DNA from: Amphiura filiformis
Lineage: Eukaryota; Echinodermata; Ophiuroidea; Amphilepidida; Amphiuridae
NCBI RefSeq assembly: GCF_039555335.1
Contig: NC_092641.1
Coordinates: 30,626,848 to 30,690,847, forward strand
DNA: 64,000 nucleotides
Direction: 5' to 3'
Shown: one piece after another, positions 27,618 to 62,730 of the stretch
Layout of the letters: every line of letters starts with the position of its first letter
Numbering within the stretch: the stretch's first letter is position 1
The notes under the pieces: generated by a model
What the model was told of the DNA's origin: nothing
Seen by the model: only the letters and a program-made list of their open reading frames with translations
Database searches by the model: none
Translations under genes and position numbers: made by a program

Positions 27618-29920
27618 TTAAATCTCTTTTCCTGCAGGAAGTATTGTCACTGTGATTGGTACCTCAACAGACCCACCATGCCACACCTCATGTTCTGTCA
27701 ACTCAAGCTTCTTTGCAAAGCTCTTGTCGCAACGATTACATTTAAAAGGGCGCCCTCCTGTATGAGTCCTCAGATGTCGAATCAAGTCCCCGCTTGTGAC
27801 AAATGCTACAAAACAGAACTGACACTTGTGTTCCTTAATTCCCTTATGTCGTTTCTCGTGATTCGTCCATGCCGTTTTGTTTGCAAATTTAGCGTTGCAT
27901 TCTTTGCACTGAAAGGGCCGTTTGGGTTGTACTCTAGTGGTATGGATCTTTTTGTGTTTGACTAAGAAATCCTTACTTGTAAAGCCTTTGTTGCAGTATT
28001 GGCATACAAATGGACGTACGCCCATGTGCATTCTTCGGTGCACTAACAGCGTATATTTTTGCGCGAACCCTTTATTGCAAAACGAACAGACATGTGCAGA
28101 CTTCTCTTGGTGAATCCGTTCGTGACTCTGCTGTTGTTGCTTCGTAAAAAACCCAGTACCGCATATCCGACACTTGTAGCTTCGTTCTCCCATGTGAGCA
28201 CTTCTCATATGTTTATTAAGTATTCCTTGCGAGTGATACGATTTTGAACAAAGCCCACATTTATGGGCGTTTGGAACAGCACGTGACTTATGATATGCCT
28301 GATGCAGACGGTACACGGACGGTCGTGTGAAAGTCTTCCCGCATAATTCGCACAGATACGATTTCTTGCTGGTGTGCTCCAGCTTGTGATCGTTGAGCGT
28401 TTCTTTGTTCTTATACACCAGCCCGCACACATCGCACTGATGTTGCTCGTATTTTTTATGAGCTGTTGCGAGGTGCCGTTTCAATTTATACCTCTGCCCG
28501 AATGAAAGATCGCATTCTGTACACTTGTGTTGTTTCTCGTCTGCATGAACCAACATGTGCAGCTGTAAATAGTGTGCAGTTCTACAGACTTTATCACAAT
28601 GTTGGCATGGAAAGTTAGTTTCTTTCTCATGAATTTTTTCGTGTCTTCTTAAATTGCGTGCAATTGTGAACTCCTTCCCACAGATGGTGCATGCCGATGG
28701 CCCTTTTTTCCTTTCTTGCGAAACTTGTTTCGGCTGCCGACTACCATTTCTATCAGAACCTTTACTGCGTACTTGAGGTTTCTGTGGTTTGAAATGTGCC
28801 GCCATATGACGCTCCAAGTAACATAATGTTTTACACACTTTATCGCAGAATTTACATGGGTGTTGATTGTGATTCGGTTCGTGGACGACCATGTGTCTCT
28901 TGAGCAGAGTCCGCGATTTAAAACGCTTTGCACAAACGTTGCATTGTGCTGGATAGCCTTTCACAGGCTTATCATCGTGCGTGTTCTGCACCTTCTCTCG
29001 CTTCACAGGCACCAAGTCAGATTTATGTGCAACTGATTTTGTGCTAACTTTCGATTTTTTCGACAAGGTTTCATCAACTAGATCATCATCATCAACGTTA
29101 TCTTTAGTACCGCCAGTGCGATTTGAGCGAAGATTTCTTTGTGTTCGCTTTGGTCGTTTCAAAGACGTTTCTTCTTCAATTTCCCTGGTCCAGTTAGGAT
29201 CATTAATCTCGCTATCATCTCCACCCTCCTCCTCCTCCTCCTCATTTTCTTGACCCACCCTCTCGTCCTTTCTAACGATATCTCCTGAAACCCTTGTTTT
29301 GTTTCTAGCATCATTTCCAATGGCCTCTGAATCAGATGTAGAGCATTCTAGGTCTTCTACACATGCTAACGCAACAATTTTTAGACTTTTCTCTTGTTTC
29401 ACGCCATACTGTACTTGGGTACTCCTTTCCGACTCTTCTACCGTCTGAACCCCTACGCTCCTCTTTTTCACTCCGGCACAAATTGGTTTCATCCCTATAT
29501 CTACTCCACTCACTTGCAACGTGACGCCAACTTTCACCGTGTTATGACCGAATGCCACGCCCGTCTGTTGCATGCATGTGGTATTGTGGGTGTTAATGAT
29601 CATATCAAGTAGATCCTTCCACCTGATGCCAGTCATATGGACACACTTTCCGTGTCCGGCAGGGAATTCCTCCAATTGGGACACTTGGATCACCTGTTGA
29701 CTTACAAGATCGGCAACCATCTCCAGACAGAGGTCGCTCCATGTTGACGACTGCGTCTCGGAGTTTCTGGTTGTACCTGCCGGTGGAGTGTTGATCTCTA
29801 CTAGCACTGGGAGTGGTGGAATACCAGATGGAACGGGGACTTGTTCGTCGTTTGTATACTGCACTTGAATTTCGACCATCTCATCGAGGGGTGCGTTGGT
29901 GAATGTCTGGTGAGGTGGAG
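27618..29920 (-). CDS. C2H2 zinc-finger protein, exon 3 (last exon, 14 fingers)
   Basis: Read 29920 to 27618. The acceptor TGAATTTCAG ends at 29921, the frame enters in phase 1, ATG GTC lies at 29879, and the stop is at 27618. The exon encodes 767 of 837 residues. The N-terminal part has no named domain I recognise (DLCLEMVADLVSQQVIQVSQ...). An acidic run (NEEEEEEGGDDSEINDPNW) and a basic, NLS-like segment (KRPKRTQRNLRSNR) come next. Fourteen C2H2 fingers follow, from CNVCAKRFKSRTLLKRHMVVH to CNRCDKSFAKKLELTEHEVWH. Linkers are only partly TGEKP-like (GERSYK, MGVRPF, TGGRPFK). Likely a nuclear DNA-binding regulator; target unknown. The exon is intact over 2.3 kb, unlike the mobile-element ORFs around it. 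Confidence 0.92.
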
Positions 29921-38545: not shown

Positions 38546-38889
38546 ATTTTGAGGTGGTGAGTCTTTGGAAGCAGACTACGTACCGGTAAAAGGGGTATTT
38601 CGGAGCTGCGAACGGGCTGTGAACAAGTAAAATGGGGTCTTTTGGGGCTGCGAAAAGTCAAAATCAAGGGTCTTTCTTGGCTTTTTTGGTTGAAAATCGC
38701 CTGAAAAAATAAGAAATATGAGGAATGAGCAATTTTGGGGTCTTTTATAGCTGAAATTATCAAAATCAAGGGTCTTTCGGAGCGTTATTTTGGTCAAATA
38801 TAGGGGTCTTTCGAGCTGTGAAACCCAAAAGGGGGGTCTTTCCGGGGAGCATACCCGTATGGTCATTTGTGTTGAGTGCCCCCGGGAAG
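38533..38889. mobile_element. MITE inserted inside the 2A LINE
   Basis: GCTCCCC near 38536 and GGGGAGC near 38845 are inverted, and the right end continues to GTTGAGTGCCCCCGGG at 38873-38888. The internal GGGGTCTTTC(G/T)GGGC word repeats about six times. It separates the 2A N-terminus from the PHD-like cluster. The left boundary is only approximate. Confidence 0.6.
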
Positions 38890-39046
38890 ATACCGGTACT
38901 TGCTTTTGCACCTTTATAGTCAGTACATGCTCCTCTACATTCACCACGGGTACTTCGGTAACCTTTGGGCCTGGATTGCTCTCTACGTCACCTGCTTTAA
39001 CAGGAGGCCCAGGATAATACATAAAGTCTATATTCTGTCGGTCCAT
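38890..39046 (-). pseudogene. 2A-peptide N-terminus of the LINE ORF
   Basis: ATG at 39046 opens MDRQNIDFMYYPGPPVKAGD, and residues 19-27 are GDVESNPGP (38992-38966). This matches the 2A ribosome-skipping consensus D-V/I-E-x-N-P-G-P. 2A motifs at the N-terminus of APE-type LINE ORFs are established in sea urchin, amphioxus and mollusc elements; there they give translational skipping between Gly and Pro or act as signal sequences. The frame continues about 35 residues (KVTEVPVVNVEEHVLTIKVQ) before the MITE. Confidence 0.85.
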
Positions 39047-42279: not shown

Positions 42280-43529
42280 TGACTGAAGAGGTTCATCAGG
42301 TCTGTTAATTAATCAGCTATTTAGAGTTTATTTGTCAAGACCAAGTGAATTTTTCTGCTGACAGTTTCGCCAGAAACCTTCTGGCTTTCTCAAAGCATTG
42401 ATGATGTTATTGATCCACCTGCTTGGAGCGGGAAACTTGACCGGATGTTTTGGTTTTCCCGGAAGTAGTACTCCTGTCTCCCGGGGTCTTGAGCAGAGGA
42501 TCAAAGATGTGACATAGAAAGAACGTGCCCTCGTCTCTGTTCATGGTCTTGTCCCCTCTCTTGCGAATCCAAATCGCTTCCTTCACCCATCTTGCTCTGC
42601 GATTTTCTTCTCTGTCGATGATTGATGAACTGGTGTCATACGCACTTTGCTAGACAGAGGTGAAAAGATCATCACCGAGGATGAGGACAAAATCGCAGAA
42701 GAGAATCACATCAAGAACGCGTTAGAAAGGTGCGGCTATCCTGTGGACAATGGAAAAAGTTAAAACAGACAGAGCCAACAAAGTCAAAAATAAGCCAAAC
42801 AACAAAGACAATCCAAATGCGGAAAAGAACAAAGGATGCGTAGTGATCCCATACATAGCCGGCGTCTCGGAAAAGATAAGCCGTATCATGAAAAAGCACA
42901 ACATCTCGACGGCCATGAAGCCCCATACTACCATCAAAAAGATGCTTGTTCACCCCAAGGACAAACAAGAGAAAGAAAGAACTGCAAATTGTGTTTACGA
43001 GATACCATGCAAAAGTTGTCCCCAAACATACATCGGTGAGACCAAAAGGCAATTTGGCGTCCGTATGAGTGAGCATAAACGGGAAGCAGAAAAAGCGGGC
43101 CAGCTTAAATACACACGCTCCAAAAGAACGGAATCTCTTACGGAAATAAATAAATCCGCAATTACTGATCATGTGTCAAGAGAAAACCATATCATAGACT
43201 GGGACAGTTCATCAATCATCGACAGAGAAGAAAATCGCAGAGCAAGATGGGTGAAGGAAGCGATTTGGATTCGCAAGAGAGGGGACAAGACCATGAACAG
43301 AGACGAGGGCACGTTCTTTCTAAGTCACTTCTTTGATCCTCTGCTCAAGACCACCGCTGGAGACAGGAGTACTACTTCATCGGGAAAACCAAAACATCCG
43401 GTCAAGTTTCCCGCTCCAAGCAGATGGATCAATAACATCATCAATGCTTTGAGAAAGCCAGAAGGTTTCTGGCGAAACTGTCAGCAGAAAAACGCAAGTT
43501 TTTCACTTGGTCTTGAATAAACTCTAAAT
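42280..43529 (+). mobile_element. 5'-truncated Penelope-like element with inverted tail copy
   Basis: The 14-bp AACCCCGTTCAATG is directly repeated at 42266-42279 and 43530-43543, defining the ends. The right part (about 42640-43529) encodes the last part of a Penelope-like ORF. The left part (about 42318-42636) is the reverse complement of the 3' end (43200-43528): e.g. CTTGGAGCGGGAAACTTGAC mirrors GTCAAGTTTCCCGCTCCAAG. Truncated copies with an inverted terminal piece are characteristic of Penelope-like elements. Confidence 0.88.
42640..43520 (+). pseudogene. Penelope-like ORF, C-terminal part with GIY-YIG endonuclease
   Basis: It begins in the linker after the RT (LLDRGEKIITEDEDK, NHIKNALERCGYP), shifts frame near 42745, and continues as one frame from 42750. 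VIPYIAGVSEKISRIMKKHN is followed by the GIY-YIG domain: VYEIPCKSCPQTYIGETKRQ, FGVRMSEHKREAEKAG and later AITDHVSRENHIIDWDSSSI, NRRARWVKEAIWIRKR. The tail is RWINNIINALRKPEG. The GIY-YIG nuclease nicks the insertion site. The RT domain itself is absent. Stop at 43518-43520. Confidence 0.9.
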
Positions 43530-45942: not shown

Positions 45943-47410
45943 ATCATCCGTCCATATCTAGGTATATCAAACACCCAGATTTGGAAGCATTAATAGTGGA
46001 TCGGTTTTGTGCCGTGTGCATGGTCAGGTTGTCGACACAAATAATAGCACCTATTTCTTAAATAAAGTAAGATGACTTTCTTTTTCAAATTAAAAAATAT
46101 AATATATTTCTTTCTCTCTTTCAGTAACTTTCTTTTAATTTTATTCCACATTTTAACAAAACATTGCTTTGTCTTTTTAGCATGTTTTTGTCTATAAACA
46201 CTATCCCTATACTCAAACATATTCAGCATTCAAACATGTCATCCGTCCATATCTAGGTATATCAAACATCATCCGTCCATATCTAGGTATATCAAACACC
46301 CAGATTTGGAAGCATTAATAGTGGATCGGTTTTATGCCGTGTGCATGGTCAGGCTGTCGACACAAATAATAGCACCTATTTCTTACATAAAGTAAGATGG
46401 CTTTCTTTTTCATATTAAAAAATATAATATATTTCTTTCTCTCTTTCAGTAACTTTTTAAAATTTTATTCCACATTTTAACAAAACATTGCTTTGTCTTT
46501 TTAGCATGTTTTTGTCTGTAAACACTATCCCTCAATATACTCAACATGTTCAGCATTCAAACATGTCATCCGTCCATATCTAGGTATATCAAACATCATC
46601 CGTCCATATCTAGGTATCAAACACCCAGATTTGGAAGCATTAATAGTGGATCGGTTTTATGCCGTGTGCATGGTCAGGCTGTCGACAGAAATAATAGCAC
46701 CTATTTCTTACATAAAGTAAGATGACTTTCTTTTTCAAATTAAAAAATATAATATATTTCTGGCTCTCTTTCAGTAACTTTCTTTTAATTTTATTCCACA
46801 TTTTAACAAAACATTGCTTTGTCTTTTTAGCATGTTTTTGTCTGTAAACACTATCCCTCAATATACTCAAACATGTTCAGCATTCAAACATGTCACCCGT
46901 CCATATCTAGGTATATCAAACATCATCCGTCCATATCTAGGTATATCAAACACCCAGATTTGGAAGCATTAATAGTGGATCGGTTTTATGCCGTGTGCAT
47001 GGTCAGGCTGTCGACACAAATAATAGCACATATTTCTTACATAAAGTAAGATGACTTTCTTTTTCAAATTAAAAATATAATATATTTCTTTCTCTCTTTC
47101 AGTAACTTTCTTTTAATTTTATTCCACATTTTAACAAAACATTGCTTTGTCTTTTTAGCATGTTGTTGTCTATAAACACTATCCCTCAATATACTCAAAC
47201 ATGTTCAGCATTCAAACATGTCATCCGTCCATATCTAGGTATATCAAACATCATCCGTCCATATCTAGGTATATCAAACACCCAGATTTGGAAGCATTAA
47301 TAGTGGATCGGTTTTATGCCGTGTGCATGGTCAGGCTGTCGACACAAATAATAGCACCTATTTCTTACATAAACTAAGATGACTTTCTTTTTCAAATTAA
47401 AAAATAATAT
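45943..47410. repeat. Satellite array, 325-329-bp unit, four and a half copies
   Basis: CACCCAGATTTGGAAGCATT recurs at 45972, 46297, 46622, 46951 and 47279 (spacings 325, 325, 329, 328). Each unit carries a doubled 30-bp subunit CATCCGTCCATATCTAGGTA, the segment GCCGTGTGCATGGTCAGG and TTTTAACAAAACATTGCTTT. Units look more than 95% alike. Minus-strand open frames of 76-79 codons inside successive units are the same repeat translation, not separate genes. Confidence 0.92.
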
Positions 47411-47498
47411 ATTTATATTTGGTTATAATAGTTAAAGAACATTCAAGGCTACTATTAGACATCAAAATCATTTTCCTAAAATTTTATATTCATTTTAA

Positions 47499-48155
47499 GG
47501 GATCCAAAATGAGCGTTTATTGCGTTTCGACAGTATTTTTTGTGGGACATGAGAGCACCTCAGACCTATCGAATTGCATTCTGAATACGAAGCATGTCTT
47601 TCTGATATCAAATAATTTTCATTTTTAAAAATCACAATATAATACAAATTTTATGACAAATTATAAAAATTTGATATTTTTCAAATTTTTGATATATAAC
47701 AGTCCTCGAAGTAAATTATTAAAATGTAATGATATATTCTTAAAGTGTATGTAGCAGGGAGGAAAAGCCGACGATCAATTGAAAATTTTGACCTTTCATA
47801 TTGAAGATACGGATTTTTTCCCCAAAAGACCTAATTTTTTTGGTGTTTTGGGAAAAAATCCATATCTTCAATACGAAAGGTCAAAATTTTCAATTGATCG
47901 TCGGCTTTTCATCCCACCTACATACACTTTAAGTATAAATCATCAGATTTATAAAGTTTACTTCAAGTACTGTTAAATATCAAAAATATCAATTTTAATG
48001 ATTTGCCATAAAATTTGTATTAAATTGCGAATTTCAAAAAATCAAAATTATTTGATATCAGAATGACATTCTTCATATTCAGAATGCAATTCGATATGTC
48101 TGATGTGCTCTATTGTCCCAAAATAAATACTGTCCAAACGTTCATACCCCAGCCC
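47499..48155. mobile_element. 657-bp TTAA-flanked foldback element
   Basis: Long inverted arms (about 47499-47825 and 47850-48155) mirror each other around 47838: GAAAATTTTGACCTTTC, CCGACGATCAATTG, AAAGTGTATGTAG, TCTGATATCAAATAATT, GAATTGCATTCTGAATA, GACAGTATTT. TTAA is present at 47495-47498 and 48156-48159. No coding potential. The outer part of the arms is more diverged than the centre. Confidence 0.85.
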
Positions 48156-48958: not shown

Positions 48959-49662
48959 TGTAAATATTGAAGCTGTAGGTTGATTTACGATGACTATTTA
49001 AAACATGGTTAGTAGACGATATTAATACACGTAGGCGAACTCACACAGACATTTATAACAGTTCCAAGCCTCGGACAGCCAAACGGCCGTCTTTTATTTC
49101 TTCAGCAAGCCATCTTAATAGTATTCTTACACAGGTAGATAAATGTTGCTCCGTAAAAGAACTGACCAAGATCTGGGGAGACAACTCCCCTTATATAGTT
49201 TTTTTGCCCGCATTCCTTTCCAGAACCTATTGTTCTGGTCAGGATGCGGGTGTGAATTGTCTTGGGGGCTTTTGGTATTATTAATGGTTTTAAGAGAAAA
49301 TACAATAGAATGAGGATCATGTTTTGACAACCCGATTGTGTTGTCCAAACATGATCGCAATAATTACAAAGGGGATGAGGTAAGTCACAAGACTGTGTTT
49401 GTATAACTGAACTCGTTTATACAAACACAGCCTTGAGTAAACTAAAGAGAGTAATTAAATGGGGTAACTTCGGCAGGATAAGAGACATTATGTTTACTTT
49501 AACACTTAAAGATCCTGGCGATTGAGACTTAATGTCTGTTAAGTGATGGGTGTTGGTAGGTATTGTTGACATAAAACATGTTAACATATTAATAATATTT
49601 GGATAGTCACTCGTTATGGGATTAGGTAATAATACTATTTTGGTAGGTTTGTACCTCTTACA
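48959..49662 (-). repeat. 3' LTR of the Ty3/gypsy element (704 bp)
   Basis: Starts TG and ends CA on either strand. On the minus strand it has a TATATAA box (TTATATA at 49191-49197) and AATAAA (49093-49098) about 95 bp later, a normal U3/R spacing. Two strong hairpins sit in the U3 part (49315-49356 and 49393-49430). By eye it differs from the other LTR only in four homopolymer lengths. Confidence 0.93.
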
Positions 49663-49665
49663 TTC

Positions 49666-49680
49666 ACATCCCCCCTTGGA
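49666..49680 (-). other. Polypurine tract
   Basis: On the minus strand CCAAGGGGGGATGTGAA precedes the 3' LTR start (TGTAAGAGG). The purine run AAGGGGGGA ends a few bases before the LTR, the expected place for the plus-strand primer. Confidence 0.6.
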
Positions 49681-51675: not shown

Positions 51676-53121
51676 TCACTCAAGGGTAGGTTGGTTGGTA
51701 TTTGGAGGGTCAGTGTTGTTAGTGTCAGTCTCTTGGTTGAGTGTGGGTTCGGGACTGGCTGGGGGTTGGGGACTGGCTGGGGACATGGGATTCTGACCGC
51801 ACTGGATGCAGATTGTGGTGAATCCAAAGAGTGTGGGTTCAGAATGAAACGTTTCCCAGCACTGTAAATGTACTGGGTAAGCGCAACATGGGAGTACAAA
51901 TTTTCGTCTGGCTGGAGGGTCCATTTCTCCTTGGTGGGAGCAGATTGCGCACATGAACTGATTTTGCGCCAGACGAGCTTGTTCTTGTAGTTCTGTGTCG
52001 TGAAGGTTGGTTATTGATGTAATCCAAAGGTAAAGGGGGGTCATATCGATTGGTGAGGGTGGGGGCAACTGCCAATGCTGGTTGGTTGGTGGGTGGGTAG
52101 TGGTGGGTGGTAATACAAGGAAGGGTGTTCGTTGGGGAAATGCGTGCGGGTTTATTATTAAATCGAATATGGCTTCTGTGTCCGGGAAAAGGTCAGGGTA
52201 GAGATTGAGGGGGTAGAGGGTCCGGAGATGGTCGATTGCTATTTTTAGTGGGGGTGGTATATCTACGATGTTGGCGGGTGGTTTTCTGCATGTCTGTCTA
52301 GCGATTGCTGCTATTGTTGAAGGGGCATTAACCAGGGTCATCCGTTTTATGAGTTTGTTTGCCCATTCAAAACGTAAACAATTGGAATCTAAAAAATTGG
52401 CTACATCGAGGATATCGTGGGCGGGGACTTCTGTAAGTTCGGAGTCTGCTGGTTGGTTTTGGGCGTATTTTGCAAGGAAATGGAGGCAGCGGACGAGGGA
52501 GTAAGCTCGTAAGGGTAGGGGACTATATTCTCGGGCAAAGTATAATGGGGCATCAGGGGTCCTATCTAGGGCTGGTGAAGGTGGGGGATTATTGGTGTCC
52601 GGTTCTACTGGGAATTTGAGGTCTACACGCAAGGTGTGTGCCTCGATGGATGATTGACATGTAGGTGTTGGTTTGTGGATGCAGGTAGTATTACGTTCCA
52701 CGGACGGTAATGTTTTCTGGAACCATCTTCGGATGTAGATCGAATATTTCGATAATAGGGCAATAGCCGTAATTGTAAATGGGACTGATTTGTAAGTTGT
52801 ATCCATGATAGAAAGAAACAGGCCGTTTAGCCGTTGAGGTTGGGGGTTATTGTTAGTCATGATGGACATACATGTAAATAAAAGAATGTAAAAAAAAACA
52901 ATAACAGATATTTGTAACATCAAAACAAAATGATTGCACAGGGTCGCTGGTTTGAGATACATAGCTATGATGTAAATAAAAAAAAACATGTCATTATAGC
53001 CTGGAGTACGCGCAAAGTGAAAGGTGTTGCGACGTTTCGTCGTTAAGTAAATATGGATGTTTGCCCACATTAATTTGTATGAAATGTGCTTCACTTTATT
53101 TTGTTTAATGTGGGTGTCCAT
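51676..53121 (-). CDS. Accessory ORF with C-terminal RING-like zinc cluster
   Basis: 481 codons if read from 53121. The N-terminal ~100 residues contain hydrophobic stretches (FFFIYIIAMYLKPATL, ISVIVFFYILLFTC), but a better start may be MSIMTNNNPQPQRLNG (about 52867). A middle part has no known domain (YSLVRCLHFLAKYAQNQPAD...). A C-terminal zinc cluster has C391-x2-C394-x17-C412-C413-x4-H418-x2-C421-x16-C438-x2-C441 (CAIC ... LPCCAYPVHLQCW ... CIQC), which resembles a variant RING finger. A Pro/Thr/Asn-rich tail follows. It lies between pol and the 3' LTR, the position of env in retrovirus-like elements, but has no signal-peptide/fusion/anchor layout. RING proteins usually act as ubiquitin ligases; that role is inference. 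The frame is intact over 1.4 kb. Confidence 0.75.
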   Translation of the reverse strand: MDTHIKQNKVKHISYKLMWANIHIYLTTKRRNTFHFARTPGYNDMFFFIYIIAMYLKPATLCNHFVLMLQISVIVFFYILLFTCMSIMTNNNPQPQRLNGLFLSIMDTTYKSVPFTITAIALLSKYSIYIRRWFQKTLPSVERNTTCIHKPTPTCQSSIEAHTLRVDLKFPVEPDTNNPPPSPALDRTPDAPLYFAREYSPLPLRAYSLVRCLHFLAKYAQNQPADSELTEVPAHDILDVANFLDSNCLRFEWANKLIKRMTLVNAPSTIAAIARQTCRKPPANIVDIPPPLKIAIDHLRTLYPLNLYPDLFPDTEAIFDLIINPHAFPQRTPFLVLPPTTTHPPTNQHWQLPPPSPIDMTPLYLWITSITNLHDTELQEQARLAQNQFMCAICSHQGEMDPPARRKFVLPCCAYPVHLQCWETFHSEPTLFGFTTICIQCGQNPMSPASPQPPASPEPTLNQETDTNNTDPPNTNQPTLE

Positions 53122-53870: not shown

Positions 53871-56408
53871 TTAAGTTAGTGGGAATGTCATGTGAAACTG
53901 TTGGGGGTAATATGGTTTTAACTTGTCATAATGCACTGTCGTGGGGCGTGCTGATGCTGACATGTGGTTAATTATTCTGTAATTTCTGCCATCTTCTGTT
54001 CTGTCGATTACTTTAAAGGGGCCTAGCCAACGTGGCGTTAATTTTGTGGGTCTCCTCTCATTGCGTAACATGACCAAATCCAATCGTTCATATGGGGTAA
54101 ATCTGGTTGATCTATCATAATAGTGGGCTTGTGATTGTTTACTCGTTGCAGAATGTGACTGGACTAGTTCATAAGCGGTACGCAAACGTGTTTGTAAATT
54201 GTTGAGGTACCTATGATGATCATCGGGTAAATGTACTTGGGTGTCATTTGAGTCATCGATATTACCTAAAAGGATGTGTATAGGTAGTAACGGTTCCTCA
54301 CCTTTTTCGAGTGAATACGGGGAGAATCCTGTTGTTGAGTGAACTGTGGCGTTATAACAAAGTTTAACTTGCCCGAGTATGTCTATCCATGAATGTAAGT
54401 CTAGTCCATTTGCTTCTAAACGTCTAGTCAGTTGGTCTTTGAGGGTTTTATGAAAACGTTCAACTTGACCATTGCAATTAGGCCTATAACTAGTTGTGCG
54501 CGTTTTTGTTACACCTGATTGTTTCAATAGTGACTGAAATACGCGTGATTCGAAAGCAGCGCCTCGATCTGAATGGATACTAATTGGTAGACCATGATTT
54601 GGTACATAATGGTCAAATAAAGCTTCTATAACTGATATGGCTGTCTGATTTTTCATTGGGTACAATTCGATATATTTTGTGAATAAATCGGTTACCGTGA
54701 GAATACAGCAATGGCCGGATGGTGTCACAGGCATATCAGTTATGTCAATTGCAATATGGCTTCGCCTTGGCTTCTGTATTGGGCGCAGTGGCGCTTTCAT
54801 GGTGGGGACAGGGTTTGCATGTTTCTGACATGCTTCACATGTAGTGCAATAATCATATATGTCATCTGCCATGCGTGGCCAATAGCAGCACGAGCTTGCA
54901 ATTTGTAGCGCTTTTTGCGTCGATGCGTGTCCAGAAAGAGGTGTGCCATGTAATTGACCTAATACTGTTGGTACGTGTTGTTCTGGAATTATGACTTGCA
55001 TAATGGGTTCAACATATTGTGGGTTGGTATATTTCTTATATAGAAGTTTATTTGGGGCAATTATTAAATGTTTGCGCTGTTTCCAAAGTCCTAATAGATA
55101 CTGATCCTTCTGTTTGGGTAGTCTTGGTTTGTTGTCATGTAGCCATGAAATTGCTGTTCTGATATGTGGGTCAGCCTGTTGTAATTCATATAGGTCGTCT
55201 TCGTAAAAAGAGAGAATGTTTTCTGGTGAGTTGTCGGCATTTGGAGTTTCGTCACCATCTGGACCTAGAATGTCTTGGTTATTCATATTATTTGTGGTGT
55301 CATGGTCAATCACGAATATGTCTTGTACTGGTAGCTCGTTGTTACTGGTTTCAGCGTCAGAGTAGGGATAGCGGCTGAGGCTATCTGCATTTGTATGCTT
55401 AGATCCAGACTTGTGTATGATAGTGAAGTCTAGAGGGTCTAATTCTAATGCCCATCTTGTGCGTTTGCCTGTTAGGTCAGAGGTCAAATCTAATTTGCGT
55501 AATGCTAAAAGTGGTCGGTGGTCAGTAATGATAGTGAATGTCGATTCTCTGAGGTAATGTCTGAACCTACGTATGGATGCTACAATGGCATAGAATTCTC
55601 TGTCAAATGTGGACCATTTGCGCTCTGTTTTAGAGAGAGAAGCTGAAAAATATGCAACAACATGCTCTTTGCCGTTGAGGTCACGTTGTGCTAGTACGCT
55701 ACCTATGCTGGTGTTTGAAGCATCGGTATACAAAGTCCAAGGCAGAGAGAAGTCAGGATGTGAGACGATGGGTGACGACGTTAAAGCCGTCCTGAGGGTG
55801 GTGAAAGCTTTCTCACATTCATCATCCCAAATGAAGGGTACATCTTTCTGAGTTAATTTGTTTAGTGGATTGGCAATTTCACTGAAACTCTTGATAAAAC
55901 GTCTATAATAAGATCCTAGTGAACAAAATCCACGTACTTGGGTTGCGTTCGTGGGGCGTGGCCAGTCTTTGACCTTTTGAATGTTACGGGGGTCAGGTGA
56001 GCATCCTTGACCTGAGATCACGTGACCTAAGAAGTGAACTTCTTTGCTGAAAAATGTGCATTTCTTGGGGTTTAGTTTAAGGCCTGCTGCTTGTAAACGT
56101 TCAAAGACTTCTCGGAGGTTCGATAATTTTTCTTCAAATGTACGTCCAAAACAGCAAATGTCGTCTAAGTAGCAGACGACCTTTGACCATCTTATACCTC
56201 GGAAGACCTTCTCGATTAGGCGCTGAAACGACTGACCAGCGTTACAAAGGCCAAAGGGCATGACCTTCCACTGGTAGAGGTTGACCCCAGTCGTAAACGC
56301 AGTCTTCGGACGATCCTGGGGGGTCATTGGTATCTGATGGTATCCAGAGGACAGATCCATGCAACTGAAAAATTTATTTCCGCCTAAACTCTCAATTGTT
56401 TCTTCCAA
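53871..56408 (-). CDS. pol: Ty3/gypsy pol: reverse transcriptase (rest), RNase H, integrase
   Basis: 845 codons from the first open codon at 56408. RT: SGYHQIPM, PFGLCNAGQSFQRL and the catalytic YLDD (residues 80-83). RNase H: YTDAS (D229), REFYA (E271), ITDHRP (D296). Integrase: zinc-binding H487/H494 with C524-x2-C527, then a DDE core of D555, D614 (HSDRGAAF) and E650 (NGQVERFHKTL), D-x35-E spacing. A C-terminal LGPFKVIDR block is the GPF/Y module. No chromodomain. All catalytic residues are present and the frame is uninterrupted for 2.5 kb. It is joined to the protease part across three one-base breaks at 56409-56650. Confidence 0.95.
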   Translation of the reverse strand: MEETIESLGGNKFFSCMDLSSGYHQIPMTPQDRPKTAFTTGVNLYQWKVMPFGLCNAGQSFQRLIEKVFRGIRWSKVVCYLDDICCFGRTFEEKLSNLREVFERLQAAGLKLNPKKCTFFSKEVHFLGHVISGQGCSPDPRNIQKVKDWPRPTNATQVRGFCSLGSYYRRFIKSFSEIANPLNKLTQKDVPFIWDDECEKAFTTLRTALTSSPIVSHPDFSLPWTLYTDASNTSIGSVLAQRDLNGKEHVVAYFSASLSKTERKWSTFDREFYAIVASIRRFRHYLRESTFTIITDHRPLLALRKLDLTSDLTGKRTRWALELDPLDFTIIHKSGSKHTNADSLSRYPYSDAETSNNELPVQDIFVIDHDTTNNMNNQDILGPDGDETPNADNSPENILSFYEDDLYELQQADPHIRTAISWLHDNKPRLPKQKDQYLLGLWKQRKHLIIAPNKLLYKKYTNPQYVEPIMQVIIPEQHVPTVLGQLHGTPLSGHASTQKALQIASSCCYWPRMADDIYDYCTTCEACQKHANPVPTMKAPLRPIQKPRRSHIAIDITDMPVTPSGHCCILTVTDLFTKYIELYPMKNQTAISVIEALFDHYVPNHGLPISIHSDRGAAFESRVFQSLLKQSGVTKTRTTSYRPNCNGQVERFHKTLKDQLTRRLEANGLDLHSWIDILGQVKLCYNATVHSTTGFSPYSLEKGEEPLLPIHILLGNIDDSNDTQVHLPDDHHRYLNNLQTRLRTAYELVQSHSATSKQSQAHYYDRSTRFTPYERLDLVMLRNERRPTKLTPRWLGPFKVIDRTEDGRNYRIINHMSASARPTTVHYDKLKPYYPQQFHMTFPLT

Positions 56409-56650
56409 AGAGGGACAGGGTGCGAATCTTTCTTTGTGGATCGATTTACGGCTCTATAATCTAAAAACGAGCCTGTAGGTAGGGGGTTCATTGCCAATTG
56501 GTTTCTTTTTAACTAATATTACTGGAGATGACCAGGGACTATCACTGGTCTCAATCAAGTCTTGCTCTAGAAGTTTATTACACTGCCTATCGATTTCAGC
56601 TCTGATTTTTGGTGAGTTTCTATATGCTCGTTGTTTGACTGGGGATTATC
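56409..56650 (-). pseudogene. pol: Frame-broken link between protease and RT in pol
   Basis: The N-terminal RT region is readable only by changing frame three times: at the G-run 56641-56644, the A-run 56463-56467 and the G-run 56412-56414 (plus strand). In between, conserved RT blocks are recognisable (NSPKIRAEID, ETSDSPWSSPVILVKKK, DYRAVN). Each break equals one base too many or too few in a homopolymer. Confidence 0.8.
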
Positions 56651-57663
56651 CCTGTATCAATAGAATGTGTAGTTAGGTCTGTTTGACCATAGGGGTGCTC
56701 CTCTGTAGAAAACACGTCAGCATACTCAAGAAGTAAAGATTGAACTTGTTGTTTTTGAGTCTTGGTCAGGTCCGTATGTGACAAGTCAAATATGGGGCTT
56801 TGTTTGTTAACTTTGTTTGCAGTTGGCACTCGGTCTGACATTTGGTTATTAGCTGTGAGGATTTGAAAATATCCAACGGGGATATTTGCACATGGGTACA
56901 ATTTGCCTATAATAGTGCCCAATTGTAATTCAATAGGTTGATCTGTAAAGTTTGCTATGTTGACAGGGACTTCATTGTTTACTGATTTGACGACGCTGTG
57001 TGCTATTTGAACGAAATCATTATCTAGTTTGGTGGCTTCAAAAACTGAATCATAGCCTGTGAAATGTTCTCTAGCGCTACTGAGGTGATCAATATTCAGA
57101 AATCCTTGAACAATAGTTTCAGATCTTGCTGGGAGTATTACATTGGTAGGTAGAAAAACTTTGCAAGGTTCAGGTATAAGGTCCCTTTTCCTTAAGAGTG
57201 GAATTTGGTGTTGTTGACAACGGAGGTTACCGTGTTTGAAATGGATTGAAATATCATGTTTTGATAGAAAATCTAGCCCGAGGAGGATGGGTTTCATCCT
57301 GCCCTGTGGCGAAATTACATGAAAAATATGCCGCATAGTAGTATTGTTAATTGACAATGATAATTGAACAGATCCTAACAACTTTAATGGTGTGCCCGTC
57401 ACTGTAACTAAAGCAATATTAGGTGTACCGATGAAGACGGGGTTATTTTGTGTCAGGTAAAGTAAGGTGTCATGCCTGATTAGGCTGGCCCCGGAACCTG
57501 TATCAAGATATGTATGAACATTATGGCCATTAATTTTGGTGATAATGGTTTGAGAAAATTCATTTACTGAAGTATCTGCGTTCAGTTCGTTGAATTCTAC
57601 ATTTACCTGGGTCACATGACTGTTAGTATGGGGGTTTTGTGAGGCAGGTGGTGATTGACCCAC
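56620..57663 (-). CDS. pol: Ty3/gypsy pol: aspartic protease and N-terminal RT leader
   Basis: The pol frame is entered by -1 frameshifting from gag, so no start codon of its own is expected (the first open codon at 57663 is GTG). The retropepsin motif TYLDTGSGASLI has D54-T55-G56, with the ILLGLDFLS block about 70 residues later (flap and hydrophobic-Gly region). A linker follows up to VFSTEEHPYGQTDL and the start of RT (HSIDTG). The frame ends early at 56620 because of the run-length change at 56641-56644. Confidence 0.9.
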   Translation of the reverse strand: MGQSPPASQNPHTNSHVTQVNVEFNELNADTSVNEFSQTIITKINGHNVHTYLDTGSGASLIRHDTLLYLTQNNPVFIGTPNIALVTVTGTPLKLLGSVQLSLSINNTTMRHIFHVISPQGRMKPILLGLDFLSKHDISIHFKHGNLRCQQHQIPLLRKRDLIPEPCKVFLPTNVILPARSETIVQGFLNIDHLSSAREHFTGYDSVFEATKLDNDFVQIAHSVVKSVNNEVPVNIANFTDQPIELQLGTIIGKLYPCANIPVGYFQILTANNQMSDRVPTANKVNKQSPIFDLSHTDLTKTQKQQVQSLLLEYADVFSTEEHPYGQTDLTTHSIDTGIIPSQTTSI

Positions 57664-57687
57664 ATCACCACCTAGCGACGGTTTCCC
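57646..57687 (-). promoter_or_regulatory. Programmed -1 ribosomal frameshift signal (gag-pol)
   Basis: On the minus strand the slippery heptamer G GGA AAC (57687-57681) lies in the gag frame, nine bases before the gag stop. After a 7-nt spacer (CGTCGCT, 57680-57674) comes a perfect 10-bp stem, AGGTGGTGAT (57673-57664) paired with ATCACCACCT (57655-57646), with an 8-nt loop and a possible extra U-G pair. pol is in the -1 frame and open from the heptamer onward. Heptamer, spacer and stem all match known retroviral -1 frameshift sites; GGGAAAC is a used slippery sequence in retroviruses. Confidence 0.9.
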
Positions 57688-59000
57688 TGTAAATTGAAAG
57701 TTACTCTACGGTCGCGTTGTGGTGACTGTGATGGGGAACGGCCCTGCGAGGGTGAACGGTTTGGGTAAGGACTATTATAGCGCCTAAAATTACCTTGAGG
57801 CCTACGGTCACCTGAAAATGATCTATCTGGTCGGCCGTTGTACGCGCTGCGATCTCGGTTGAATGAGGGCGAGCTCCTATTGCGCGTGTCTTGACGCCAC
57901 GGTGGGGGTCCATTGCCGTTTTGGCGGGGGCGTTCAAAAGAAGATGATCTTGCACGCGAATCACGTGAGTGATCGTAAGACGAGCTAAAATTTCGTGATC
58001 TATCATAATTTGGATTGAAATCGCGTGCTCGATCAAAAGACATAGACCTATGTTGGTAGCGAGCGCCGTTGCCGTAATTGTCGCGGCGACGGTCATAGCC
58101 ACGAGAGCGGTTGTTGTCGCGCCGCTCTGTGGTGTAATCGGGGCGCATGTTTGAAGCGATGCGCTGTAAAGTGTCACCCTGACGCTTTATTTCCTCCAAA
58201 ATATTCTTTGAATCTGCATTGTTGGAGGTGGAGAGGTTTTTGAATTCCTCCAAAAGTTGTTGTAAGATAGGGTCAGGGTTATTGACGGGTTGAATTAAAT
58301 CAACTGACTCGATTTGGGCCACAATTGGTACATGGGCAGATGCAGAATCAATGTGTGGAGTGTTTTTATACTCCAATTGGGCTCTTTCGTTGTTTTTGCA
58401 AACTCTGATGGCAGTGGCGATGTCTTGAACATCATTCTCATGTAATTTTGCTCTGAGAAAGGGGGAGACACCTGCAATCAAACGGCGCAGTGTTTCCTGT
58501 TGTTTTTGGGGAACTGAATAATCTGGAAATGCTTGGCTTGTGAGATTTTTCAGTTCCGCGATATAGACTTCAATATTCTCCTCGGGTTTACGAGGTCTGG
58601 CTGTCAAAGAGCCTTGGAAAATTCGTATGAAATCTTGGTTATTAAAAACATCGCAAAGATGTTCTTTGCACGCGTCGTAGTCCTCTTTTGTGTCTCGGGT
58701 AAAGTCTCTGTAGACTTTGTACGCGTTCCCGGCTAATTTTTGGGGGAGGATTGATATTAGACGAGTGTTCAGATCGTCATCGTCCTCGGCAAGAGGGCGT
58801 ATTGAATCTTCGATCCTTGAAAACCAATCGGCGATGTTATCCGTTGGTTTACCATGAAATTGGGGTAAATCCAAAGTCATTTGGAATTGGTTTTGCATCG
58901 CCATGTTGTATTTTTTGTTGACAAGAGTCCAAAAATAAATGTAATGTTTTGAACTGAACTCACCCTTCCGTAACGGGTTGTAGGGTAATAGTAAGGACAC
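57672..59000 (-). CDS. gag: Ty3/gypsy gag with Arg/Ser-rich tail, no zinc knuckle
   Basis: 442 codons from 59000; a later Met (MAMQNQFQMTLDLPQFHG, residue 33) is the likelier start. The capsid-like domain (about residues 45-200) has ADWFSRIEDSIRPLAED, LISILPQKLAGNAYKVYRDF and FQGSLTARPRKPEENIEVYI, LRRLIAGVSPFLRAKL, as in Ty3/gypsy Gag. A predicted helical segment (residues 250-285) follows. The last 150 residues are dominated by R, S, G, N, Y and D (RSRGYDRRRDNYGNG, FDRARDFNPNYDRSRNFSSS). There is no CCHC zinc knuckle, so RNA binding is presumably by this basic tail. It assembles the particle and packages RNA. Confidence 0.92.
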   Translation of the reverse strand: MSLLLPYNPLRKGEFSSKHYIYFWTLVNKKYNMAMQNQFQMTLDLPQFHGKPTDNIADWFSRIEDSIRPLAEDDDDLNTRLISILPQKLAGNAYKVYRDFTRDTKEDYDACKEHLCDVFNNQDFIRIFQGSLTARPRKPEENIEVYIAELKNLTSQAFPDYSVPQKQQETLRRLIAGVSPFLRAKLHENDVQDIATAIRVCKNNERAQLEYKNTPHIDSASAHVPIVAQIESVDLIQPVNNPDPILQQLLEEFKNLSTSNNADSKNILEEIKRQGDTLQRIASNMRPDYTTERRDNNRSRGYDRRRDNYGNGARYQHRSMSFDRARDFNPNYDRSRNFSSSYDHSRDSRARSSSFERPRQNGNGPPPWRQDTRNRSSPSFNRDRSAYNGRPDRSFSGDRRPQGNFRRYNSPYPNRSPSQGRSPSQSPQRDRRVTFNLQGNRR

Positions 59001-59141
59001 TCAAGAGTATACAAAATATTTGCTGAGTGGAGATGCCTGGGGTTAAACACTAGAGCATCAGTGAGAAGTTAAGCTTTTACAAACTAACATATGTAAATAG
59101 TAAATAGTTAAAGCAAATAAGCTGAGTGCAGTACAGGCCAA

Positions 59142-59438
59142 TTATGCCTGATTAGCTACTACGAATCCTTCTGAATATACCTCGGCAGGAGAAGTGTATC
59201 TGATGGTCAGTGCATACCGTGATTGTGGTAAAGGGGCTAATGTAACACCTCGAATCAATTGTTGCCACTGGCTAAAAAATTGAATAAGTTCAATAGCCTG
59301 TGAAATTGTCAAGTTGTTAAAACGGACTTGAATTGTACTCCTAAAAGTATTTTGGTTGACGGGTACAATGGAGACTGAAAGGAGTGTTGGCTGAAAGTTT
59401 TCTGACCACACAGCTGGGATACTTATGTAAATACTCAT
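59142..59438 (-). CDS. Accessory small protein, paralogue 1 (98 residues)
   Basis: MSIYISIPAVWSENFQPTLL opens the frame, followed by SVSIVPVNQN and VRFNNLTISQAIELIQFF. It shares its layout with the ORFs at 59605-59943 and 60021-60242: M-S-(I/F)-x-(I/L), P-x-x-W, P-x-x-(I/L)-x-x-x-S-I, then F-(N/E)-(N/E)-L followed by an amphipathic helix. No known family recognised; no signal peptide or membrane segment. It lies 140 bp upstream of gag. Function unknown. Confidence 0.65.
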   Translation of the reverse strand: MSIYISIPAVWSENFQPTLLSVSIVPVNQNTFRSTIQVRFNNLTISQAIELIQFFSQWQQLIRGVTLAPLPQSRYALTIRYTSPAEVYSEGFVVANQA

Positions 59439-59604
59439 GCCCAGGGAGATTCAGTAAGATTCTAAGAACTAACGATAATATGCAAAATGTGGAACATGTA
59501 CAGATTTAAAAAAAATATATATAGACATGTAACAATAATTGATTGGAAGATGGGTAAAATCGGAAGGTGGAAAAGGGTAAATAATTATTATATAGATAAT
59601 TTAT

Positions 59605-59943
59605 TTAATTTTGATCTACAAACACAACGTCTGACCAATTATTATAGGTGATTAGACTATTATCGGACAAAATTGAGAACGTTACACCGTATTCAATAAA
59701 AAGTGAAAATGTATTTTGGTGGGTGTCGATATATTTAATGTTAAAAATATGACAACTATTGTTTCTCATTTCCTGAATTATTTGCAAATTTTGGTCGCCC
59801 GTTAGATTTTCGAATTTGATCTCGGCTAATATGCAGACAAGTTGTGTATTATGTGAAGATGGTTCTATTGAAACATAAATTATTGTTGGATTAAAGGGGG
59901 GTGGCCATGAGGGTGGGATTTGAATGTTAATGCTCATAGCCAA
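59605..59943 (-). CDS. Accessory small protein, paralogue 2 (112 residues)
   Basis: MAMSINIQIPPSWPPPFNPT then IIYVSIEPSSHN and EIKFENLTGDQNLQIIQEM, clearly related to paralogues 1 and 3. It is the longest of the three, with a beta-rich C-terminal part (FSLFIEYGVTFSI). Conservation of the Trp-Pro, Ser-Ile and F-x-N-L positions between copies that differ widely in DNA sequence argues that they have been maintained as proteins. Function unknown. Confidence 0.65.
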   Translation of the reverse strand: MAMSINIQIPPSWPPPFNPTIIYVSIEPSSHNTQLVCILAEIKFENLTGDQNLQIIQEMRNNSCHIFNIKYIDTHQNTFSLFIEYGVTFSILSDNSLITYNNWSDVVFVDQN

Positions 59944-60020
59944 TCATTGTGTATTAATGGACGAAATTTGAGTGTGATAAGCAAATTGGAGACTGTGCTG
60001 GGGATTAGATCCTGAGTGAG

Positions 60021-60242
60021 CTACGGGGTGCACCAATGGCCAATTAAAAATGTATTTGGGTTTTGTAGTATTGCTTCTAAAATAAGGTGACAGTGAGAAT
60101 GGTCTTGTAATTCGTTAAAAACGGCACCAACGACAACGGTATACAATTCAGAAGCGGGGTTTTCGGAAATGGAATACAAAAGAATACGTTGCGGGGTGTA
60201 CTGGGGTGGCCAAGCACGGGGGTAAATTAATGTAAATGACAT
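60021..60242 (-). CDS. Accessory small protein, paralogue 3 (73 residues)
   Basis: MSFTLIYPRAWPPQYTPQRI then LLYSISENPAS and VFNELQDHSHCHLILEAI. Same N-terminal layout as paralogues 1 and 2 but it stops earlier (GHWCTP), so it may be shortened. Unknown family. Confidence 0.6.
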   Translation of the reverse strand: MSFTLIYPRAWPPQYTPQRILLYSISENPASELYTVVVGAVFNELQDHSHCHLILEAILQNPNTFLIGHWCTP

Positions 60243-60315
60243 GGAAGACTAAAGAAGGTGTATTTATGATAGTAGTGGTATAATTAATGAGATACAATAT
60301 AAAATAAATATTACC

Positions 60316-60708
60316 TTATCTGGGAGGATTAGATATCACCACATATAAACACAAAATAAACATATAAATTGGAGTGAATACCACACTGAAAGTTCTTACA
60401 GGTTGAAGAATAACTCCGGGTAGGATTCCAATGAATAGTGAATAATCTGCACACGTAGTTGTCGACACAGTCCAGTAGAAAATTTCGTCTTCTGAAGAAT
60501 ATGCGACGGTGATCCGAAAGTCAAAATTGAATAGGCGATGAAATGATGCTGAATTAAAATCTATAGTGATCCGGGGCGAACTGGAGCTAAAAGTTATCAA
60601 AATGGTGATGACATTATATTGTTCCGGTGGTAATCCACAGGTGAAGTGTAAAACATGTCCAAAAGTTATAGCGATGAAAAATATGAGCGTTGATGCGTCG
60701 AGGTCCAA
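60316..60708 (-). CDS. Accessory ORF with N- and C-terminal hydrophobic segments (130 residues)
   Basis: MDLDASTLIFFIAITFGHVL is a possible signal or anchor segment. A middle part (PPEQYNVITILITFSSSSPR, FNSASFHRLF) vaguely recalls the P-P-x-Y...I-L...S pattern of the neighbouring paralogues. A second hydrophobic segment (VVFTPIYMFILCLYVVI) ends the protein. It could be a two-pass membrane relative of the three small proteins. Unrecognised; moderate doubt that it is real. Confidence 0.45.
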   Translation of the reverse strand: MDLDASTLIFFIAITFGHVLHFTCGLPPEQYNVITILITFSSSSPRITIDFNSASFHRLFNFDFRITVAYSSEDEIFYWTVSTTTCADYSLFIGILPGVILQPVRTFSVVFTPIYMFILCLYVVISNPPR

Positions 60709-60889
60709 AAGTTAAAGCAAATGATGAAACAATAAAGTGACGAAATGGAGACTTCCTTCGGGGCAAATGGTGATGAAAATAAAAGTGATGGTCGAGATGC
60801 GCCGGTAATCCAAAAGTTAAATCAGACGATAAAATGAAGAATTGCAAGTATCAAAATGTCCACGGCAGGGTAAAGGCTGACTGAACTGG

Positions 60890-61117
60890 TTAAACTTCTG
60901 TTTCCTGCTCTCCTCCGTTGGCATAAATTAAAACTTGTGCTATGAGTTGCATAAAGTGTGCTTGCCTATAGCGAATTTCTGATTCTGTGATCCATCGGCT
61001 GATAAATGCTGTAGTAAGCATAAGAAATGCAAATGAGATGATGAGCATAAGCGCTAGGATAACCAGTGCTGCATCGGTGGCTAGGTGGTACTGATATGAC
61101 ATCAGGTCACAGTCCAA
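60890..61117 (-). CDS. Accessory ORF, single-pass membrane protein (75 residues)
   Basis: MDCDLMSYQYHLATDAALVI runs into one strong membrane segment (VILALMLIISFAFLMLTTAF), then a polar tail (SRWITESEIRYRQAHFMQLI) ending GGEQETEV. First ORF after the primer-binding site, 56 bp downstream of it. No family recognised. Confidence 0.5.
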   Translation of the reverse strand: MDCDLMSYQYHLATDAALVILALMLIISFAFLMLTTAFISRWITESEIRYRQAHFMQLIAQVLIYANGGEQETEV

Positions 61118-61172
61118 AACAGAGTAGTAGATGCTAGTAGATGCCAGTACATGTAGAGGCTACGGGACGATT

Positions 61173-61185
61173 GGTGTGGGAACCA
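61173..61185 (-). other. Candidate primer-binding site
   Basis: On the minus strand TGGTTCCCACACC starts two bases after the 5' LTR end (...TTTACA, then C). TGG matches the CCA end of a tRNA primer; I could not assign the tRNA. Confidence 0.55.
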
Positions 61186-61186
61186 G

Positions 61187-61891
61187 TGTAAATATTGAAG
61201 CTGTAGGTTGATTTACGATGACTATTTAAAACATGGTTAGTAGACGATATTAATACACGTAGGCGAACTCACACAGACATTTATAACAGTTCCAAGCCTC
61301 GGACAGCCAAACGGCCGTCTTTTATTTCTTCAGCAAGCCATCTTAATAGTATTCTTACACAGGTAGATAAATGTTGCTCCGTAAAAGAACTGACCAAGAT
61401 CTGGGGAGACAACTCCCCTTATATAGTTTTTGCCCGCATTCCTTTCCAGAACCTATTGTTCTGGTCAGGATGCGGGTGTGAATTGTCTTGGGGGCTTTTG
61501 GTATTATTAATGGTTTTTAAGAGAAAATACAATAGAAATGAGGATCATGTTTTGACAACCCGATTGTGTTGTCCAAACATGATCGCAATAATTACAAAGG
61601 GGGATGAGGTAAGTCACAAGACTGTGTTTGTATAACTGAACTCGTTTATACAAACACAGCCTTGAGTAAACTAAAGAGAGTAATTAAATGGGGTAACTTC
61701 GGCAGGATAAGAGACATTATGTTTACTTTAACACTTAAAGATCCTGGCGATTGAGACTTAATGTCTGTTAAGTGATGGGTGTTGGTAGGTATTGTTGACA
61801 TAAAACATGTTAACATATTAATAATATTTGGATAGTCACTCGTTATGGGATTAGGTAATAATACTATTTTGGTAGGTTTGTACCTCTTACA
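61187..61891 (-). repeat. 5' LTR of the Ty3/gypsy element (705 bp)
   Basis: Direct repeat of 48959-49662, with TATA box (TTATATA at 61419-61425, minus strand) and AATAAA at 61321-61326. Transcription would start about 30 nt beyond the TATA box (near 61390) and run leftwards. The same two U3 hairpins are present (about 61545-61587 and 61622-61660). Confidence 0.93.
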
Positions 61892-62255: not shown

Positions 62256-62730
62256 GGTCTTCCATATCTAGGTATATCAAATACCAAGATTTGGAAGCAT
62301 AGAAAGTGGGTCGGTTTTTGCCGTGTGCTTAGTCAGGCTGTAGCCATTTCATAGATAATTATTAAACATCTTTGTAAAGGGGATAACTTTCTGCATCAAA
62401 ATTAAAAATAAAATATATTTCTTTCTTATTTTGTTTTCTCTTTCAGTGACTTTCTTTCAATTTAATTCCACAAACCAGTCCTTCAAGTTGTCTATTTTGC
62501 CTGCTTTTTGGATGTTTTTTGTATAATAGGCCGATATATTAAACAGTTTTGAACTGATTTTCTTTCCTTCATTTGTTTTTTTTTCTTCCTTTCTTTTCAT
62601 ATAAAATCGGGCTAATTATCTGTTTGAAGGCAGAATGAATAGGAAAACCATGTTTGTGTCTTTCTTCATTCATTTCGAAGGTCTATAAACATTAACCCTC
62701 ATACTCAAACATGTTTCACATTTAAACATG
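62256..62730. repeat. Single diverged copy of the 325-bp satellite unit
   Basis: TCCATATCTAGGTATATCAAA, given by its core CCATATCTAGGTATATCAAA at about 62261, then GATTTGGAAGCAT, GCCGTGTGCTTAGTCAGGCTG, AAATATATTTCTTTC, TCTTTCAGTGACTTTC and CATACTCAAACATG follow in the same order as the 45.9-47.4-kb array, but with insertions and many substitutions. The copy is spread over about 450 bp. Confidence 0.75.

Follow-up and report, generated by a model that had tools for sequence, protein, structure and literature searches.

Our starting question was whether small open reading frames (ORFs) lying ahead of gag in a retrotransposon are protein genes and, if so, what their products might do. The locus is in a 64,000-nucleotide stretch of the Amphiura filiformis genome (contig NC_092641.1, positions 30,626,848 to 30,690,847), here called the window; all coordinates refer to it. 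The host structure is a complete Ty3/gypsy (Metaviridae) element on the minus strand, with a total size of 12.9 kb. Its small ORFs, A to E, lie in the leader between the primer-binding site (PBS) and gag. Comparison of their sequences supports A and B as anciently duplicated protein genes, with C as a third copy at lower certainty.

The leader holds an excess of open reading frames

The PBS and the gag start codon, at 58904, are about 2.28 kb apart. This measurement bears out the long gap claimed by a sequence-only reading of the window. The same reading had placed five minus-strand ORFs, of 73 to 130 codons, in the interval. These are as follows.

60890 to 61102, minus strand: ORF E, 70 amino acids (aa), ATG start; predicted transmembrane segment at the N terminus, followed by a tail that contains 3 Arg; sORF2/FAST-like candidate
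60316 to 60708, minus strand: ORF D, 130 codons without an ATG start; doubtful gene
60021 to 60242, minus strand: ORF C, 73 aa; putative third paralogue, in which the C-terminal part found in A and B is absent
59605 to 59937, minus strand: ORF B, 110 aa; paralogue, ATG at 59937
59142 to 59438, minus strand: ORF A, 98 aa; paralogue

All five were found near the places first given. Note that the ATG of B is at 59937 (59943 is a TTG) and that of E is at 61102 (61117 is a TTG). E is 70 aa from its ATG, and the 130 codons of D have no ATG start. The frame of D starts from a TTG, a single codon behind a stop, and for this reason we leave D out of the gene count; its sole in-frame ATG would give a 15-aa tail. 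The sense, ATG-started ORFs of at least 70 codons are therefore four: E, C, B, and A.

Such frames could be open by chance in an AT-rich leader, with any motif resemblance between them accidental. We counted ATG-started ORFs in 1000 dinucleotide shuffles of 59001-61186. For lengths of at least 70 codons, the shuffles contained 0.87 on average, and the four observed were reached in 3 of 1000 (0.003). Two ORFs of at least 90 codons were observed against 0.32 expected (shuffle fraction 0.037). Conversely, one ORF of at least 105 codons is not unusual (shuffle fraction 0.134, or 13% of shuffles). This result fits an origin by chance, as does the missing ATG of D, while the overall excess argues against it. 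The opposite strand of 59001-61186 has no ORF of at least 60 codons. Searched against Pfam, the five leader ORFs gave only a sub-threshold match of DNA_pol3_delta to B (E 0.036). An Rfam search at gathering thresholds gave 0 matches, and a tRNA search found 0.

Relationship between ORFs A, B, and C

Motifs shared by A, B, and C had been claimed from the sequence. Local alignment upholds this for two of the three pairs. The A-B score was 111 against a shuffle mean of 29 (z 15), and the B-C score was 56 against 26 (z 6); neither was reached in 3000 shuffles, which counts against accidental resemblance. The A-C pair alone is weak, scoring 36 against a mean of 25, and 71 of 3000 shuffles did as well. 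Similarity so near to chance is what an accident would produce, and the case for A-C homology runs mainly through B. With alignments anchored at the start and confined to the first 18 residues, the observed score was reached by 0 of 20000 shuffles for A-B, 0 of 20000 for B-C, and 7 of 20000 for A-C. Each protein starts with MS(I/F), and P8, W11, P17, S23, P26, F40, L43, and I52 (A numbering) are common to all three. A tblastn search of the window with A, B, and C, at E 10, also linked A and B (1.6e-4 and 8e-9). In shuffle-tested alignments, D and E resembled neither the trio nor one another. We regard chance as a highly improbable explanation overall and, for A, B, and E (see below), as already largely refuted.

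Identity between A and B is 40, 56, and 31 of 98 at the three codon positions, and 31 of 98 residues are identical. Where the amino acids agree, 11 of 29 codons match, compared with 12.6 expected from codon usage. Agreement is no better than this expectation and, hence, synonymous sites are saturated. Nonsynonymous (dN) and synonymous (dS) divergence by NG86 were 0.88 and 4.2 for A-B, and 0.93 and 2.3 for B-C (18 of 70 residues identical), where any dS above 2 reflects saturation and lacks precision. Because silent sites have been randomised, yet 31 residues persist, we take it as a sign that purifying selection acted in the past, at least on A and B; present function does not follow from it. 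The earlier description of duplicated and retained protein genes therefore holds for these two and, at lower certainty, for C.

Could the small ORFs instead be relics of a duplicated gene that once functioned, now degenerating within a long untranslated leader and still open only through recent insertion? The long terminal repeats (LTRs) of the element have no mismatch, so decay in place would have had little time. C falls short of A and B in length, and inspection by eye revealed no downstream frame that continues their C-terminal part. In addition, dN and dS are about equal for A-C, and pol looks broken in the present copy. However, A and B are full length, with aligned starts, despite synonymous saturation, and a relic would not be. 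Similarly, four open ATG frames exceed the shuffles. We consider decay of this kind unlikely.

Two other ideas were tried and rejected. Derivation of the trio from gag, or from the ORF X described below, received an hhalign probability of at most 0.1 per cent. For degenerate additional copies in the rest of the window, tblastn with nine proteins gave a best E of 1.1 outside the element. The profile and structure searches of the paralogues proposed by the sequence-only reading were run, and gave no relative and no convincing structure match for the trio fold. Briefly, the model of B is beta-beta-alpha-beta-beta, at low confidence and from three sequences only (mean predicted local distance difference test, pLDDT, 62; predicted template modelling score 0.55). 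B alone found no candidate with three shared words in the protein database; such searches depend on shared exact words, of which short proteins may have none, so relatives may exist.

ORF E and the proposed roles of the leader ORFs

The hydrophobic segment of E has a Kyte-Doolittle 19-residue mean of 2.96. This was reached by 1 of 4100 ORFs of at least 60 aa from shuffled leaders, a further result that chance explains poorly. The equivalent mean for D is 2.37. Of the two membrane segments noted previously, that in E is strong and that in D belongs to a doubtful gene. There is no Lys or Arg before the E segment and there are three Arg after it, which suggests, from the positive-inside rule applied by eye, an N-out/C-in topology.

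On balance, we favour, with moderate confidence, a joint reading in which the leader ORFs are accessory genes, E encoding a membrane protein for capsid transfer and A, B, and C duplicated intracellular proteins. Most likely, E would be a small single-pass plasma-membrane protein acting as capsids pass between cells; here we argue only by analogy with sORF2 of the MDG1 group, discussed at the end. A, B, and C would derive from one ancestral gene, duplicated inside the element. Their products are most likely small, soluble, and active in the producing cell, as thought for MDG1 sORF1, and each may have adapted to a somewhat different partner.

A number of observations weigh against this joint reading. 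E begins MSYQYHL, which does not match the N-myristoylation motif MGxxxS/T, and the three Arg after its segment are separated and mixed with Glu, forming no clear polybasic run. Plain tblastn over the window, at E 10, connected C with neither A nor B, and C is therefore the least certain trio member. For A-C, dN is 1.36 and dS is 1.34, with no sign of constraint; the imprecision of the larger dS values counts here too. All 27 candidates that the trio profile returned from the protein database had E values above 1. In this copy, the pol region seems to be either broken or mis-sequenced, because the N-terminal part of reverse transcriptase (RT), between 56620 and 56408, occupies more than one frame and switches frame more than once. 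Finally, there are 24 ATGs between the PBS and gag, so scanning alone is unlikely to reach the gag start. The leader has no excess of RNA structure either (mean z +0.19 over 31 folding windows, lowest -1.54). Together, these make the route to gag hard to account for. A structured leader, resembling an internal ribosome entry site, was rejected on the same 31 windows.

Possible routes of expression

If the leader ORFs are accessory genes, they are probably expressed from unspliced RNA running from LTR to LTR. Shorter leader RNAs may perhaps end near the AATAAA at 59605-59600, which overlaps the last base of the B stop codon. Note that a single such hexamer, in AT-rich DNA, is unremarkable. For gag, a simple position weight matrix scan, the only method applied to splice sites, found a donor-like GTGAGT within the LTR at 61272 (score 6.3), downstream of a TATATAA box, and an acceptor-like site at 59036 (score 7.0). 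Both scores are middling. Splicing from 61272 to 59036 would remove the whole small-ORF leader and yield a gag RNA with a short leader. Alternatively, gag might be reached by reinitiation, or by internal entry past the leader ORFs. The scan also found the following site, which could serve splicing to X.

58958 to 58966, minus strand: strong donor-like AGG/GTGAGT, G of the GT at 58963; score 12.6; 59 nucleotides before the gag ATG

Structure of the host element

The remaining parts of the element, in the direction of transcription, are listed here.

61187 to 61891, minus strand: 5' LTR, 705 bp; TG...CA ends, AAAG target duplication outside
61168 to 61185, minus strand: PBS, beginning TGGTTCCCACACC, one base past the LTR
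57672 to 58904, minus strand: gag, 410 aa; ATG at 58904 in the strong context AACATGG
56620 to 57663, minus strand: protease ORF
53871 to 56408, minus strand: main part of RT, RNase H, and integrase
51676 to 53121, minus strand: ORF X, 481 codons; conserved core at about 52821-52132, Cys/His cluster at 51951-51799
49663 to 49677, minus strand: polypurine tract AAGGGGGGATGTGAA, adjoining the 3' LTR
48959 to 49662, minus strand: 3' LTR, 704 bp

Assignment to Ty3/gypsy, made previously from the sequence, is supported by the LTRs, the AAAG duplication, and the Pfam domains. The latter are aspartic protease, RT, RNase H, and integrase, in the order usual for gypsy elements; gag gave only sub-threshold Pfam matches. 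The LTRs have TG...CA ends and AAAG is present at both flanks of the element, which fits the 4-6 bp target-site duplication of Ty3/gypsy. Aligned over 707 columns, the LTR pair has 0 mismatches and 4 gap openings. Since there is no mismatch, insertion was recent. The first 13 bases of the PBS match what we take to be the 3' end of tRNA-Glu. Each LTR also contains a near-palindromic 48 bp (61617-61664 and 49388-49435, 83% complementary).

Among plasmid records, 22 matched pol; the closest, among the matches listed, was a 5.3-kb Wolbachia-labelled circle at 35% identity. This circular record of 5332 bp, filed as a Wolbachia plasmid (moth Corcyra), carries genes for a Ty3/gypsy-type protease, RT, and RNase H. 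Probably, it is a misfiled host retroelement circle. Phage records gave 1 short match.

ORF X between pol and the 3' LTR

X belongs to the same element and was not mentioned by the sequence-only reading in its account of the leader module. Residues 101-330 of X share 42% identity with a 273-aa protein (P0001) of a 25-kb ENA contig and, on the basis of this match, the X core is a conserved protein. This protein was the one relative among 3521 candidates from a protein-database search with X. In viral contigs, no relatives were found for X, pol, gag, protease, the trio profile, or a profile of X with P0001; in genome contigs, none were found for the latter profile or pol. The C-terminal Cys/His residues, ordered by eye, run C,C / C,C / H,C / C,C, and their spacing is not that of a canonical RING. 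The structural model of X is poor (pLDDT 38); of its 24 Foldseek rows, 21 are BTB proteins (16 SPOP), the best at E 3.0. Sequence tests of X did not confirm a BTB/POZ signature, and X matched nothing in Pfam at E 10. That X is an adaptor of the BTB/SKP1-like type, with a zinc-binding module at its C terminus, we treat only as a lead.

Lentiviral accessory proteins hand restriction factors of the host to a cullin ligase. Were X a BTB/SKP1-like adaptor, the element could have a ubiquitin-pathway counter-defence, where A, B, and C act as substrate-recruiting or regulatory partners and restriction factors are delivered to a cullin ligase. The Foldseek rows point this way and the sequence tests do not; we think this alternative quite improbable. 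A broader proposal is that the trio forms an undescribed family of host-factor antagonists, the product of repeated duplication and diversification inside the element, joined by a FAST-like E for cell-to-cell transfer and a BTB/zinc-module ubiquitin adaptor X, making a lentivirus-like kit of at least 5 genes. This we regard as doubtful. Our preference is still for E as a capsid-transfer protein alongside duplicated intracellular proteins A, B, and C.

Surroundings in the window

A tandem repeat, with a unit of about 325-329 bp, occupies 46000-47438, and a related 58-bp piece is found beyond the element at 62261-62318. Hence, the element sits within or beside a tandem-repeat family. Long inverted repeats at 47523-48140 (147 bp at 87% and 110 bp at 88%) are a possible fold-back element. 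Further away, 42750-43520 (plus strand) encodes a GIY-YIG endonuclease domain (E 2e-5), an enzyme that occurs in Penelope-like elements. An ORF at 38576-39046 (minus strand), near RT-like ORFs on the same strand, has no Pfam match and contains GDVESNPGP, presumably a 2A-type ribosome-skipping motif. An open 753-aa C2H2 zinc-finger ORF is located at 27618-29879 (minus strand).

Comparison with known systems

The sequence-only reading knew of no described LTR-element family with such a module. This does not stand, since the MDG1 group, Ogre, and Walleye dermal sarcoma virus (WDSV) all have pre-gag ORFs.

The nearest likeness is to the Drosophila MDG1 group of Ty3/gypsy elements (412, mdg1, Stalker, Blood), which also have small sense ORFs between LTR and gag. 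These are sORF1 (~110 aa) and sORF2 (~70 aa, transmembrane), both with low dN/dS, detected peptides, and RNA and microscopy data (PMC11952523, preprint). The RNAs are an unspliced full-length form, with both pre-gag ORFs, and a short form ending after sORF1. The sORF1 product is nuclear; that of sORF2 is a membrane protein implicated in cell-to-cell transfer and found where capsids pass into the oocyte (PMC11952523). Where the MDG1 group has two small ORFs, we find four with an ATG; the likeness is one of leader ORFs. E is similar to sORF2 in its length, its membrane segment, and its place before gag, the sORF2 and FAST-like proteins being 63-107 aa with one transmembrane segment, but differs in N-myristoylation. 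Note that sORF2 of Stalker1/2 also lacks this motif (PMC11952523). Further marks of these proteins are an N-out/C-in topology, which E may have, judging by eye, and a polybasic run behind the segment, of which E shows no clear case. At 73-110 aa, A, B, and C are near sORF1 in size, with B also 110 aa, but sORF1 has a potential helix-turn-helix, unlike the low-confidence model of B. Other differences are order, since the membrane ORF is first here and follows the soluble one in MDG1, the long 3' ORF X, and size (12.9 kb against MDG1 transcripts of ~7 kb). In addition, a single soluble family occurs here as three paralogous copies.

Ogre, a plant Ty3/gypsy element, similarly has coding sequence upstream of gag, in the form of a 550-codon ORF of unknown function (PMC1142308). 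Here, no single ORF in the leader approaches that length, the longest ATG-started leader ORF being 110 aa, and the Ogre passages mention no small paralogues. In the epsilonretrovirus WDSV, orf c lies just upstream of gag and is presumed to be translated from genomic RNA, and orf a and b are further accessory genes (PMC3185748). A small pre-gag ORF plus other accessory genes is the arrangement here too, but WDSV, a retrovirus with env, has one ORF before gag rather than four. As regards env in the present element, Pfam searches of X and of the five leader ORFs gave no match above threshold. The aORFs of plant LTR retrotransposons are extra conserved genes, mostly between pol and the 3' LTR (PMC7264820). 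Their placement is like that of X, and the passages available do not describe duplicated small ORFs before gag.

We conclude that pre-gag ORFs are already known and that, in the titles, abstract openings, and passages searched, a paralogous set of them has no precedent. An arms race with the host would be expected to leave such a pattern, in which a family has expanded within a single element. Should other copies retain these frames, pre-gag accessory genes would be more varied than the two-ORF set described for MDG1, and the trio could provide a testable system for the roles of retrotransposon accessory proteins.
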